From Rhodanobacteraceae bacterium (GTDB lineage: Bacteria > Pseudomonadota > Gammaproteobacteria > Xanthomonadales > Rhodanobacteraceae), in the NCBI GenBank assembly GCA_025928585.1, contig JAICJG010000010.1, positions 1 to 43,335 on the forward strand: a stretch of 43,335 bases of DNA, in the 5' to 3' direction. The position numbers and the translations under genes are program-made. Shown here piece after piece: positions 18,374-29,533 of the stretch. Each line of letters opens with the position of its first letter. Position 1 is the first letter of the stretch. The notes under the pieces were generated by a model, which was not told the DNA's origin, did no database searches, and saw only the letters and a program-made list of their open reading frames with translations.

Positions 18374-18450
18374 CGTCCACGCCACCCACGTCCCCGGAAT
18401 CAAAAACGCCCGCAAGGGCGTCATCTGTTTCTGGCGGAGAGGGTGGGATT
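18374..18450 (-). repeat. Duplicated 3' end and terminator of tRNA-Ser(CGA)
   Basis: These 77 bases are a direct repeat of 18544-18622, about 85% identical by eye. Read on the minus strand, the unit holds the last 19 bases of the tRNA (18450 to 18432, from ATCCCACC through CCA), a copy of the ACGCCC..GGGCGT terminator with its T-run (18402-18421), and about 30 further bases. The two copies are separated by the structured element at 18451-18535. The arrangement looks like an integration scar or a tandem duplication. Confidence 0.85.
18432..18450 (-). pseudogene. 3' fragment of a tRNA-Ser (T arm and acceptor end only)
   Basis: On the minus strand these bases read ATCCCACC followed by CTCTCCGCCA, identical to the 3' end of the intact tRNA-Ser(CGA) at 18604-18694. 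The 5' part of a tRNA is missing. It is replaced by the structured element, which ends in GGTTCGA at its far side. Confidence 0.8.
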
Positions 18451-18535
18451 GCTCGGCCCATCCCTGGGCCTCACCCTCGCTGCGCTCGGGGCCGCCTTCG
18501 GCGTCCAATTTTGTTCCCGACAAAATTGTCGAACC
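18451..18535 (-). repeat. Structured three-hairpin element next to a tRNA-Ser relic (copy 1)
   Basis: In minus-strand order: GGTTCGA (18535-18529), a 9-bp hairpin CAATTTTGT/ACAAAATTG with loop CGGGA (18528-18506), a 3-bp GCC/GGC hairpin with loop GAA (18502-18494), a GC-rich GAGCGCAGCGAGGG block, and a 5-bp GGCCC/GGGCC hairpin with loop AGGGAT (18470-18455). It then runs into the tRNA 3' fragment. The second copy at 27224-27310 has the same order, loops and flanks but different stem bases that still pair. Confidence 0.85.
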
Positions 18536-18601: not shown

Positions 18602-18694
<93 letters not shown>

Positions 18695-26321: not shown

Positions 26322-26557
26322 ATTACCGCCTGCTGTATTTCGCCTCATTATGTGACGCCGCTGGCCGGGCGGAGGAAATCGTTGCGAGCGAAGCGGCCGA
26401 CGTGCGCGCCCTGTACTCGGAACTGGCGGAGCGGCACGGTTTCACCTTCGCGCCCGAGCGGTTGCGCGTGGCGGTCAACGGAGCATTCACGGACTGGGAC
26501 CACTGCCTCGCCGACAACGATGAGGTGGTGTTCCTGCCGCCGGTGAGCGGCGGGTGA
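26318..26557 (+). CDS. moaD: Molybdopterin synthase sulfur carrier subunit MoaD
   Basis: A 79-residue ubiquitin-like protein whose C-terminal Gly-Gly (PPVSGG) is thiocarboxylated and supplies sulfur to molybdopterin. The beta-grasp pattern begins [18 protein letters not shown] and includes RVAVNGAF and the [11 protein letters not shown] tail. It starts at the ATG inside the moaC stop (ATGA). The length is normal. It functions with MoaE as the two-subunit synthase. moaE starts 103 bases downstream, across a hairpin region. Confidence 0.95.
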
Positions 26558-26599
26558 GGAGCGGCGTTTACGTGATGCCAGTGGCATCGCGTGCCACGG

Positions 26600-26617
26600 G
26601 CGGCCAGGGATGGCCGC
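26600..26617. repeat. AGGGAT-loop hairpin between moaD and moaE
   Basis: GCGGCC (26600-26605) pairs fully with GGCCGC (26612-26617) around the loop AGGGAT. A second small hairpin, GATGCC/GGCATC, lies just before it (26576-26588). The same loop with other stems recurs at 18455-18470, 27292-27307 and 37695-37710. Confidence 0.7.
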
Positions 26618-26659
26618 ACCGGCGCCACGCACCATGGACGGTTGCTCGGTGAGATCTGC

Positions 26660-27109
26660 ATGAATACGAAGGCATCCACTGCAAAGTTCTGGATCAGCGA
26701 GGCGCCCATCGATATTGCGCATCTGCAGCGCGAGTTGGAGGCGGCCGGTGTCGGGGCGGTGGTCTGCTTCGAGGGGCGGGTGCGCGACCACAACGAGGGT
26801 CGCCCGGTGGACAGTCTCACGTACCAGGCCTACGGCGAATTGGCGGAAGCGGAGGGGCAGCGGATCCTCGAGGAAGCACGGGCTCGGTTCGCGATCGAAC
26901 GCGTCGTCTGCCTGCACAGGGTTGGCGAGCTGGCAGTGGGGGAGGTCGCGGTGTGGGCCGGAGTTTCGGCGGGGCATCGCGCCGCCGCGTTCGATGCCTG
27001 CCGCTACGTCATCGACGAGGTCAAGGCGCGAGTTCCGATCTGGAAGCGCGAGCACTACCGCCAGGGCGCTTCGGAATGGTTGCATCCCGACTCCGCCGGG
27101 CCGAAATGA
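26660..27109 (+). CDS. moaE: Molybdopterin synthase catalytic subunit MoaE
   Basis: A 149-residue catalytic subunit of molybdopterin synthase. Family segments are AVVCFEGRVRDHNEGRPVDSLTYQAY, RVVCLHRVGELAVGEVAVWAGVSAGHR and the active-site lysines in DEVKARVPIWKREHY. The open frame starts earlier (26591), but the ATG at 26660, preceded by GGTGAG, gives the accepted N terminus. It completes a moaA-C-D-E cluster. moaB and moeA are not in the window. The gene ends 46 bases before the tRNA-Ser relic, and the tRNA promoter begins at its stop codon. Confidence 0.95.
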   Translation: MNTKASTAKFWISEAPIDIAHLQRELEAAGVGAVVCFEGRVRDHNEGRPVDSLTYQAYGELAEAEGQRILEEARARFAIERVVCLHRVGELAVGEVAVWAGVSAGHRAAAFDACRYVIDEVKARVPIWKREHYRQGASEWLHPDSAGPK

Positions 27110-27138
27110 TTGCCCGGAAGCAGTGGCACCGGTATCCT
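27110..27138 (+). promoter_or_regulatory. Probable promoter of the tRNA-Ser(GGA)-SRP RNA unit
   Basis: TTGCCC (27110-27115) and TATCCT (27133-27138) are separated by 17 bases and lie 17 bases before the truncated tRNA-Ser copy. I see no comparable promoter between the truncated copy and the intact tRNA, so transcription probably runs through both. Confidence 0.5.
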
Positions 27139-27155
27139 GCTGCGTTCACTTTCCC

Positions 27156-27230
27156 GGAGAGGTGTCCGAGCGGTCGAAGGAGCACGCCTGGAAAGTGCGC
27201 AAGCGGCCAAACCCCGCTTCGCGGGTTCGA
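27156..27230 (+). pseudogene. 5' three quarters of a tRNA-Ser(GGA), lacking the 3' acceptor end
   Basis: The sequence matches the intact tRNA-Ser(GGA) at 27346 from GGAGAGG through the anticodon arm (anticodon GGA retained) to the T-loop TTCGA. There it stops: the structured element begins at 27231, and only a TCCCGCCC-like remnant (27313-27320) follows it. The variable arm differs from the intact gene (GTGCGC..GGCC against GTGTGT..GGCT). Without an acceptor 3' strand and CCA it cannot be a normal tRNA. Confidence 0.85.
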
Positions 27231-27310
27231 CGAATTCGTCAGGAACGAATTCGGACAACCGCAGGTCGGCCCCTAGCGCAGCGAGGGGTGAGCATCAGGG
27301 ATGATGCGAA
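27231..27310 (+). repeat. Structured three-hairpin element in the T loop of a tRNA-Ser relic (copy 2)
   Basis: After GGTTCGA come a 9-bp hairpin CGAATTCGT/ACGAATTCG with loop CAGGA (27231-27253), a 3-bp ACC/GGT hairpin with loop GCA (27258-27266), a CCCCT..AGGGG stem around AGCGCAGCG (27270-27288), and a 5-bp GCATC/GATGC hairpin with loop AGGGAT (27292-27307). It has the same order as the copy at 18451-18535, with three compensated base pairs in the first hairpin, one in the second and three in the last. Confidence 0.88.
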
Positions 27311-27345
27311 CAGTCCCGCCCGCGGGCGGGATGGGAACAATCCGT

Positions 27346-27438
27346 GGAGAGGTGTCCGAGCGGTCGAAGGAGCACGCCTGGAAAGTGTGTAAGCGGCTAA
27401 ACCCCGCTTCGCGGGTTCGAATCCCGCCCTCTCCGCCA
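27346..27438 (+). tRNA. tRNA-Ser(GGA)
   Basis: A complete 93-base class II tRNA reading TCC and TCT codons. Acceptor GGAGAGG (27346-27352) pairs with CCTCTCC, followed by G and encoded CCA (27436-27438). The anticodon loop CTGGAAA carries GGA. A long variable arm and the T arm GCGGG-TTCGAAT-CCCGC are intact. SRP RNA begins 12 bases downstream. Confidence 0.97.
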
Positions 27439-27449
27439 GTTTCAGTCAT

Positions 27450-27562
27450 GGTGGCCCCGTTGGTGCCTTCGCGACGATAAATCGAAAACCCCGCCAGGGC
27501 CGGAAGGCAGCAACGGTATCGATCGACTCGTGCGCCGGAGATCCGCTGGCGGGGCCGCCTCC
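27450..27562 (+). ncRNA. ffs: Signal recognition particle RNA (4.5S, small bacterial type)
   Basis: About 113 bases, the size of the Escherichia coli 4.5S RNA. The conserved apical domain is GGGCCGGAAGGCAGCAACGG, with the GGAA tetraloop and the asymmetric AGCA internal loop that binds Ffh. The long stem is made by CCCCGCCAG (27489-27497) with CTGGCGGGG (27546-27554), and by GGTGGCCCC (27450-27458) with the 3' GGGGCCGCC. The GTTGGTGCC..GCGACG segment also parallels 4.5S. Only 11 bases separate it from tRNA-Ser(GGA), with no promoter between, so it is probably processed from a shared transcript. It lies directly before dnaX, a widespread arrangement. Confidence 0.93.
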
Positions 27563-27632
27563 ATTTCCCGGGCGCGAGTGGCGAGGATGTAGCCGCATCG
27601 CGGCGGAATCCGGGATCATCCAAGCACTTCTT

Positions 27633-27662
27633 CGGATTTCGCTTCGCTTCATCCGGGCTACT
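27633..27662. repeat. Dispersed repeat upstream of dnaX
   Basis: CGGATTTCGCTTCGCTTC followed by ATCCGGGCTAC is the common intergenic repeat of this bacterial group, with a GGAT..ATCC stem. A diverged copy is at 21909-21938. The 285-base gap 27563-27847 contains no gene. Confidence 0.65.
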
Positions 27663-27847
27663 GGCATCGGCCCGTTCCCCGCGCGTGGTTTTCTCGCCCA
27701 TGGGTTGGCACAATGGGCAGTGGTTCGTACGGTCGTCGGGATCACGGTTCACGTTAACCCCGCCAGGCGGCTGCGTTACGGATCGAGAAACTCCAGAATG
27801 GCCGTTCGTCGCGTGACATTTCGAGAAGGCAACTCCGGATCTTGCCC

Positions 27848-29533
27848 ATGAGCTACCAGGTCCTGGCCCGCAAGTGGCGTCCGAAGCAGTTCGACGAGTT
27901 GGTCGGGCAGGAACACGTCGTCAAGGCTTTGGCCCACGCGCTGGACTCGGAGCGCGTGCACCACGCCTATCTCTTCACCGGCACCCGCGGGGTCGGCAAG
28001 ACCACCATTGCGCGGATCTTCGCGAAGTCGCTCAATTGCGAGCGCGGCATGTCTGCGCATCCTTGCGGTGAATGCGCGATCTGCACGGCGGTCGACGCCG
28101 GGCGCTTCGTGGACCTGATCGAAATCGATGCGGCCAGCAATACCGGGGTCGACGACGTGCGCGAGGTGATCGAGAACGCCCAGTACGCGCCGGCGCGCGG
28201 CCGCTACAAGGTGTACCTCGTCGACGAAGTGCACATGCTCTCGAAGAACGCGTTCAACGCGTTGCTGAAGACGCTGGAAGAGCCGCCGGGGCACGTGAAG
28301 TTCCTGCTGGCGACCACCGATCCGCAAAAGCTTCCGGTCACGGTGCTTTCGCGCTGCCTCAAGTTCGGTTTGAAGCGTCTGCTGCCGGAGCAGATCGCCG
28401 GGCAGATGCGGATGATCCTCGGCCGGGAGGGCATCGGGTTCGACGAAGCCGCGATCATCGAGCTCGCGCGCGGCGCGGACGGCTCGCTTCGCGACGGCCT
28501 GTCGCTGCTCGACCAGGCGATCGCCCACGGGGGAGGCACGCTGCGCGCCGAGGATGTGCGGGCCATGCTCGGCACCATCGCGGACAACGACGTCGGCACC
28601 CTGTTGCGCTCGCTCGCCGATGGCGACGGCAAGGCCCTGCTGGCCGAAGCCGACCGGATTGCCGGATTGTCGCCCGATTTCGCGATGGTGCTGGAGCAGC
28701 TTGCCGGCGCCTTGCACCGTATCCAGTTGCGCCAGTTGGTGGCCGGGTTCGAGGCCGACGAGCCCGAGCGCGAAGTACTCGCGGCGCTGGCGGGCGAAGT
28801 CGATCCCGAGGACGTGCAGGTCTGGTACCAGTTTGCGCTCAATGGCCGGCGCGACTTGCCGCTCGCGCCGGACGCGCGTACCGGCTTCGAGATGACCCTG
28901 CTGCGGATGCTGGCCTTTCGGGGCCATGGGGTGGATGCCGGGCGGGCGAAGGAACGTCCGGTGCCTCCGCAGCACGCGCCAGTGCGGACCGGGGCACCAC
29001 GAGCGGCTGCCGCGGCGCCTCCGCCCTACGACTCATCTCGGTGCGAGCGTCACGCCGCGGCGGAGCCGGTGACGCCGCGGGTGGCCGATGCACCTGGCAA
29101 GCCGGCCGTGGCCGCACCTGCAGCCACATCGCCACGGATCGACAGCGTCGCCGACTGGGAGGCCTGGATCGAGTTGGCAGGACTCGGCGGCCCCGCCGGG
29201 CAACTCGCGCGGAACGCGCTGCCGAAGTCGTTCGAGCACGGCGTGTTGACGCTGGAGCTGAAGCCCGAGCACATGATCTTGTGCAGCGACGCCTTGTGCG
29301 GGCAATTGCAGGATCGGCTCGGCAAGGCGGTCGGGCGCAGCCTGCGGGTTCGGGTCGTCCCGGCCACCACCGTTGCCGAAACCCCCGCAGCGCGGGCGGC
29401 GGCGGCCCGATCGGAGCAACAGGCGGCGGCGGAGCGCGCGCTCGCGGACGACCCGATCGTCCAGGATTTCCAGCGCGAACTCGGCGCCGAAATCATCCCC
29501 GAGAGCATACGACCCGTAGGCAGGCAGGCATGA
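27848..29533 (+). CDS. dnaX: DNA polymerase III subunit tau (clamp-loader ATPase)
   Basis: A 561-residue clamp-loader subunit that couples the polymerase cores to the sliding clamp loader. The AAA+ domain starts [22 protein letters not shown]. Walker A is GTRGVGKT (45-52), the zinc-binding cysteines are 64, 73, 76 and 79, Walker B is [10 protein letters not shown] and sensor 1 includes [12 protein letters not shown]. Domain III follows to about 365. A variable Ala/Pro-rich linker (375-420) leads to a C-terminal tau domain ending near [17 protein letters not shown] find no A-rich slippery heptamer of the E. coli type, so there is no sign of frameshifted gamma. The ATG at 27848 is the family start. 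It overlaps ybaB by 4 bases. Confidence 0.96.

Follow-up and report, generated by a model that had tools for sequence, protein, structure and literature searches.

Small palindromic elements, REPs and ERIC sequences are known kinds of element, and the same holds for an internal insertion of about 70 bp in ERIC elements, reportedly described by De Gregorio in 2005 and by Wilson and Sharp in 2006. Transfer RNA genes are landing sites of large integrative elements, and elements that target them duplicate tRNA 3' ends. The tyrT repeats of E. coli (RtT RNA, RF00391) are tandem repeats with a tRNA 3' end, situated downstream of the tRNA gene. In the open-licence papers, searched by title and abstract, no report was found of a hairpin element in tRNA T- or D-loops with tRNA-Ser duplications like the one described here. 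We consider it probable that this element, designated E, is non-autonomous palindromic mobile DNA, carried as tolerated cargo in a co-transcribed tRNA-Ser(GGA)-SRP operon.

The stretch of DNA analysed (the window, 43,335 nucleotides) is contig C163 of a draft genome of 2.73 Mb in 183 contigs (genome G000). Six neighbouring ORFs match the MoaA-type radical SAM, MoaC, MoaE, DnaX, RecR and HIT families. The initial annotation had placed a truncated tRNA-Ser copy and a hairpin element 5' of the intact tRNA-Ser(GGA) and the SRP RNA, and the coordinates confirmed this: positions 27156-27230 and 27346-27420 are 96% identical over 75 nt, at a spacing of 190. The features are as follows.

27110-27115 and 27133-27138, plus strand: promoter-like pair TTGCCC and TATCCT with a 17-nt spacer, likely the native promoter of tRNA-Ser(GGA)-SRP RNA
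27156-27230, plus strand: truncated copy, the first 75 nt of tRNA-Ser(GGA), with the T-loop end GGGTTCGA (sequence comparison)
27231-27312, plus strand: element E, 82 nt (covariance-model match, E-value 4.8e-19 for the window genome)
27231-27253 and 27256-27268, plus strand: hairpins H1 (loop CAGGA) and H2 of E, counted by hand from the alignment
27270-27288 and 27292-27307, plus strand: hairpins H3 and H4 (hexaloop AGGGAT) of E, counted in the same way
27313-27345, plus strand: GTCCCGCCC-GC-GGGCGGGA hairpin with inverted T-arm, and a short spacer
27324-27338: inverted T-arm, complementary to 27415-27429 of the intact tRNA (15 nt, 87% complementary)
27346-27438, plus strand: intact tRNA-Ser(GGA)
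27458-27554, plus strand: SRP RNA, bacterial small type (RF00169, 65.4 bits)
18604-18694, minus strand: intact tRNA-Ser(CGA), with a second E copy downstream
18450-18528, minus strand: second E copy of the window, 79 nt, GGTTCGA before it, 75 nt after tRNA-Ser(CGA)
18432-18449, minus strand: second tRNA-Ser 3'-end copy ATCCCACCCTCTCCGCCA, directly after the second E

The region 27229-27345 has a predicted fold of -50.5 kcal/mol (z -2.96), equalled by 1 of 200 shuffles, and the family of homologues described below is better evidence for its hairpins than the fold energy. Hairpins resembling GTCCCGCCC-GC-GGGCGGGA also occur in G002, G011 and G012, and in G005 without E. The inverted T-arm at 27324-27338 could compete with folding of the 3' half of the intact tRNA (27415-27429).

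Promoter and gene order of the operon

The pair at 27110-27138 had been regarded as the sole promoter-like pair, located before the truncated copy, and under relaxed criteria this was borne out for 27050-27560. TTGCCC-17-TATCCT has 8 of the 12 consensus bases, and the whole plus strand (43,335 positions) holds eight sites with at least 4/6 in both hexamers and a spacing of 16-18. The pair is weak by consensus, since a stricter standard promoter scan gave no promoter-like site in 26500-27900; the predicted promoter at 27110-27138 is called on conservation and not on consensus fit. Ten of the 13 genus loci (window counted) have the motif TATYCTGC at a distance of 23 to 76 nt on the 5' side of their first tRNA block; in G002, G011 and G015 a stretch of 320 nt was searched and gave none. 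Its distance to the tRNA block is 23 nt in G008, as in the window. In G008 the promoter sequence of the window stands directly before a single intact tRNA-Ser(GGA), followed by the SRP RNA, and both the truncated copy and E are missing. Thus the native promoter of the operon is very likely the one that precedes the truncated copy, and the window has an extra 190-nt block (27156-27345) between promoter and operon.

This block, made up of the 5' tRNA copy, E and the inverted T-arm hairpin, separates the likely native promoter from the tRNA-Ser(GGA)-SRP operon. Since it lies 3' of that promoter, a single precursor is most likely, which would carry the truncated tRNA, E, the intact tRNA and the SRP RNA. 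RNase P and other nucleases would cut the mature RNAs from it. No promoter-like pair was found between 27156 and 27450 in the relaxed scan, and no terminator-like site on the plus strand of 26500-27900. Together with the promoter layout of G008, these results support the co-transcription part of the earlier proposal, and co-transcription of the truncated copy, E, tRNA-Ser(GGA) and SRP RNA appears the likeliest arrangement on the sequence evidence. A transcription start may lie within 27313-27345. The SRP RNA had been said to begin 12 bases after the tRNA CCA, at 27450. The gene order stands and the start differs, the Rfam match beginning at 27458, 20 nt past the tRNA; 27450 may be the start of the SRP RNA precursor.

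An SRP RNA match was obtained in 37 of 41 genomes, and 30 loci were taken for comparison. The tRNA-Ser(GGA) gene lies upstream of the SRP RNA in 22 of these 30, namely in 21/21 loci of the same family and in 1/9 outside it. In G008 a second, shorter SRP RNA match was seen downstream of the first (G008:C122:8994-9077, in L066). The position of E at the 13 genus loci was read over 100 nt upstream plus the tRNA-SRP interval. It was found upstream of the intact tRNA in four (G000, G002, G011, G012) and between tRNA and SRP RNA in six (G002, G006, G007, G011, G013, G014), two loci having it at both positions; it was absent in five (G004, G005, G008, G009, G015), of which G005 retains the inverted T-arm hairpin. 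Because of this distribution (upstream 4, between 6, absent 5) E is more fittingly regarded as a passenger of the operon than as its fixed leader.

Structure and distribution of element E

A DNA search with 27221-27325 gave matches in 19 of the 41 genomes, and none of the 16 genus genomes was without one. Of 67 copies, taken from these matches and from additional stretches, 65 were aligned, two degenerate ones having been excluded; this alignment (A2) defines a family of 71-89 nt with four covarying hairpins and sharp ends. In these 65 copies 94.0% of 1642 cells are paired and 217 cells show two-sided changes, values reached by none of 500 shuffles in either case. Two-sided changes are seen at 16 of the 26 pairs (3/500 shuffles as high), and when the alignment is slid by 1-3 columns at most 41.8% of the cells are paired. 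Further pair types were not in excess (36, against 35.9 in the shuffles; 286/500 as high).

The covariance model was built largely from the genus of the window and its E-values are rough. It matched in 155 of 197 family genomes at E 0.001 (genus 16/16), in 154 of 299 order genomes at 1e-4 and in 38 of 299 phylum genomes at 1e-5, the three samples overlapping. Genomes of the genus carry 6-23 copies, and some of the phylum genomes are many-copied (G429, 14 matches); at loci L287-L291 of G429, a distant genome, 72-nt E variants lie inside larger mosaic repeats whose left parts differ. Copies were also present in records named Rhodanobacter, Dyella, Dokdonella, Luteibacter, Luteimonas, Rudaea and Fulvimonas and in MAGs labelled Salinisphaeraceae, Acidiferrobacterales and others. 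No Rfam family matched E, whether the gathering scores or a permissive E-value limit of 10 was applied (20 loci in one run). The window E had no match among the INPHARED phages and PLSDB plasmids, nor had the E of L012 among the PLSDB plasmids. For one phage variant of E a 26-nt match was obtained in two Klebsiella phage records, and no stretch was retrieved with a second viral pattern. In four viral contigs E variants stand directly 3' of ATGA (L268:1407-1478, L269:3268-3339, L266:199-244 and L267, minus strand, 5134-5063), and in L268 and L269 E forms the in-frame beginning of a phage ORF.

Insertion sites and tRNA duplications

The window genome yielded four tRNA-Ser genes (GGA, CGA, TGA and GCT), each with an E copy at most 80 nt away, the GCT copy being degenerate. 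The other 33 tRNA matches (37 Rfam matches in all, in a draft assembly) are without E, including the six other long tRNAs, five Leu and one Tyr. The model gave 15 matches at E 0.01 in this genome, and only the four tRNA-Ser ones are near a tRNA. At L008:623-1305 (G000:C16) a degenerate E copy and tRNA-Ser(GCT) lie directly downstream of csrA.

For the analysis of contexts, 301 hits were reduced to 194 copies by dropping those short of the model ends or at most 60 nt from a locus end and by merging copies with identical flanks. Since 94 of the 194 came from loci chosen by a T-loop pattern, which included GGTTCGAC, the counts of contexts refer to the remaining 100, a set that still includes SRP loci and loci fetched by place. 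The classes, assigned by regular expressions of our own making, were T-loop (52), D-loop (11), REP type (16), after another E (4) and other (17). The triplet left of E is CGA in 72 of the 100 copies and another one in 28, and ATCCC stands to the right in 52. The target of E is most often CGA^ATCCC and is not strict; a target-type sequence is GGTTCGAATCCC. An intact tRNA or tmRNA lies within 700 nt of 75 of the 100 copies; it is a tRNA-Ser for 66 of these 75, and 74 have the same orientation as E.

Single copies widen the range of sites. E was found in the tmRNA T-arm (L128; by eye also L303 and L306), in tRNA-Arg(CCG) (L019, L031), in a tRNA-Gln copy (L204) and inside other E copies (L018, L079, L097), and in L148 copies stand head-to-tail; once it directly follows a tRNA CCA (L028), and in L219 its orientation is antisense to the T-loop copy that holds it. 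E is adjoined, or tRNAs are preceded, by another hairpin module, GGCAGGATGCC, which has a GGA loop and often ends in GA(A/G)CA; its sites include L128 (minus strand, 1500-1470), L094 after 1560, L058 before a tRNA and L010 before tRNA-Asp.

Removal of E from the REP copies predicts the site GGCGGGAnnAGCGnAGCGA^ATCCCGCC, and this was found empty 24 times in 6 of the 16 genus genomes; the reversed control gave 0 occurrences in the same 16 genomes. Filled and empty alleles were also observed in E. coli, where a 71-nt E relative lies within ERIC after panC in strain L73 (L308) and is missing from R32_14_1F, the junction of the empty allele being GTGA^ATCCCC. The E relative was matched in 604 of 5426 E. 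coli genomes, and a second site is located near ybfA (L310/L311). ERIC-like flanks, identified with the ERIC reference sequence in Table 1a of PMC2759123 (an excerpt of that paper), were seen only in the enterobacterial E relatives read (L298-L300, L304, L307, L308, L310, L311). At the insertions of E no target duplication was found beyond one ambiguous A. E thus resembles small non-autonomous palindromic mobile elements (MITE/REP-like in the broad sense), having dispersed homologous copies at unrelated sites, sharp ends and unoccupied target sites (in REPs, at panC, and in G008 with the whole 190-nt block missing), and is not a MITE in the strict sense, as it is without target-site duplication and its ends are separate hairpins instead of one inverted repeat.

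The tRNA pieces around E are of two types. At the GGA locus of the window and in G002, G011 and G012 (5' type) a 5' part of the tRNA is followed by E, about 9 nt of T-arm, the inverted T-arm and the intact tRNA. The 3' type, represented by the CGA and TGA loci of the window and by G006, G007, G013 and G014 and best seen in L151 and L148, begins with the intact tRNA; next, in those loci that were read, stands a tRNA 3' end in inverted and frequently decayed form, and after it GGTTCGA-E and another tRNA 3' end. Arrays of E have a period of 150 (L129), 181-182 (L151) or 88, the last being exactly head-to-tail (L148). In L151 (1380-1500) and L148 (minus strand, about 1880-1755) a long near-perfect palindrome stands directly before GGTTCGA-E and consists of the 3' half of tRNA-Ser(GCT) with its terminator, then an inverted copy of both. 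Simple insertion does not account for the duplicated and inverted tRNA pieces by E, and some tRNA-Ser copies may have spread through recombination between tRNA-Ser genes and not by transposition.

As a mechanism we propose that E, of about 80 nt, would insert cleanly at a short target in hairpin-forming DNA, its hosts being the T-arms and D-arms of tRNAs, the tmRNA T-arm, GTAG-type REPs, ERIC and E itself. It would be mobilised in trans by a putative enzyme acting on hairpin DNA, E itself probably being devoid of function. Since the tRNA-Ser genes are single-copy here, the surviving E copies would be those in partial duplicates beside an intact tRNA. A RAYT is a weak candidate for the mobiliser, as the Y1 transposase family PF01797 was detected in just 7 of the 16 genus genomes (6 over the cut-off), against 16/16 for E.

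Weighing of the explanations and comparison with known systems

The loops of E resemble binding sites of CsrA/RsmA. GGA is present in both the H1 loop (CnGGA) and the H4 loop in 178 of the 194 copies, the H4 hexaloop is mostly AnGGAT/C, with an AnGGA start in 143 of 158 distinct copies fitting the loop pattern, and the pair closing H4 is C-G in 65/65 aligned copies. The CsrA SELEX site, in an excerpt of PMC7652899, is RUACARGGAUGU, mostly in hexaloops, and to that extent the H1 and H4 loops are similar to it; csrA is present in the window genome. Accordingly, E could be a mobile pair of CsrA/RsmA-binding hairpins, so that RNA from the tRNA promoters would bind the regulator and arrays would serve as CsrB/RsmZ-like sponges, a reading that we hold to be unlikely. 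It is equally doubtful that a mobile hairpin element of this kind, spread through Gammaproteobacteria via tRNA, tmRNA, REP and ERIC hairpins, makes the tRNA/SRP RNA precursors a dispersed selfish sponge for the global regulator RsmA by its place in strongly transcribed tRNA-Ser operons. However, csrA is near-universal in the relatives (39/41), and its presence is therefore not discriminating. In Xanthomonas RsmU, according to the excerpted part of PMC7694677, RsmA still bound after every predicted GGA motif had been altered, and little can therefore be concluded from GGA by itself. The mismatches in the stems also speak against it: in E there were 24 G.T and 20 A.C among 1577 cells, compared with 116 and 43 among 988 cells in an SRP RNA control, whose counts are inflated by misregistered pairs, and an alignment-free tally of G.T and A.C gave 13 and 12 for H1 and 13 and 24 for H4. 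Selection of the E stems at the RNA level was not seen in these data, since there is no excess of G.T over A.C. For this reason, and because of the antisense copy in L219, mobility at the DNA level was ranked above titration of RsmA.

The initial annotation had also suggested the hairpin element as a leader that every precursor would carry, and E would then be a functional leader or spacer tuning the processing or abundance of tRNA-Ser and SRP RNA. Its place between promoter and intact tRNA in the window, its occurrence in the tRNA-Ser(GGA)-SRP operon at 8 of the 13 genus loci and its presence beside all four tRNA-Ser genes found in the window genome are in line with such a role. The varying position at these loci (upstream in 4, between the genes in 6, none in 5) and the copies in REPs, ERIC, phage gene starts and tmRNA are not, and a leader proper to the operon was thus not borne out; we consider a tuning function quite improbable. 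The 3' type, with tRNA 3' ends duplicated around E, recalls what integrative elements leave behind, and the 190-nt block might be a scar of such an element with E as a part of its attachment site. Clean insertions of single E copies in REPs, ERIC and D-loops and the lack of an integrase among the six neighbour genes checked (MoaA, MoaC, MoaE, DnaX, RecR, HIT) disfavour an attachment-site remnant and make this very unlikely. The precise insertion into T- and D-loops, once right after CCA (L028), and the sense orientation in 74 of 75 copies near tRNA would suit an element acting as RNA, for example a tiny intron reverse-splicing into tRNA loops. Yet the host tRNA copies lack a half, one copy is antisense in a T-loop copy (L219), and the stem mismatches do not have the look of RNA selection. 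Joining the flanks restores a tRNA across the junction in just 7 of the 194 copies, each with an intact tRNA-Ser(GGA) 28-136 nt away, and an intron in a sole tRNA copy was rejected on this basis; such an RNA-level element is extremely improbable.

With mobile hairpin DNA as the preferred explanation, the filled and empty alleles, available also in E. coli, make the choice of target, the enzyme and the survival of essential tRNAs after insertion testable, and the conserved GGA loops offer a cheap test of the link to CsrA/RsmA.

Compared with the CsrB/RsmZ sponge RNAs, E has in common the repeated GGA in hairpin loops, a likeness that may be one of loop sequence only, and it differs in that no Rfam family covers it. 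Membership of RF00391 was rejected, the score being 15.2 bits against a threshold of 45 and the match lying largely on the tRNA. The Rickettsia palindromic elements, as presented in excerpts of PMC3733652 and PMC10969869, are likewise short palindromes inside genes, comparable to E behind ATGA in the viral contigs; unlike them, E prefers tRNA-Ser copies in Lysobacterales, and the likeness drawn here is one of architecture. The GTAG REPs and REPINs, as far as the excerpt of PMC3733652 describes them, resemble E in being short, palindromic, non-coding and dispersed, and E copies often lie inside such REPs. In contrast to them, E starts with C, has no GTAG head or GTAG at its ends, is four hairpins long and has few copies per genome (6-23), and the Y1 transposases to which the RAYTs of REPs belong occur in only 7/16 genus genomes. 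The ERIC insert differs from the window E, which is 82 nt long, has four hairpins and is hosted by a tRNA-Ser copy and not by ERIC, the reported insert being compared by description; it is similar in that the 71-nt E relative of E. coli lies in ERIC at GTGA^ATCCCC, with both filled and empty alleles.
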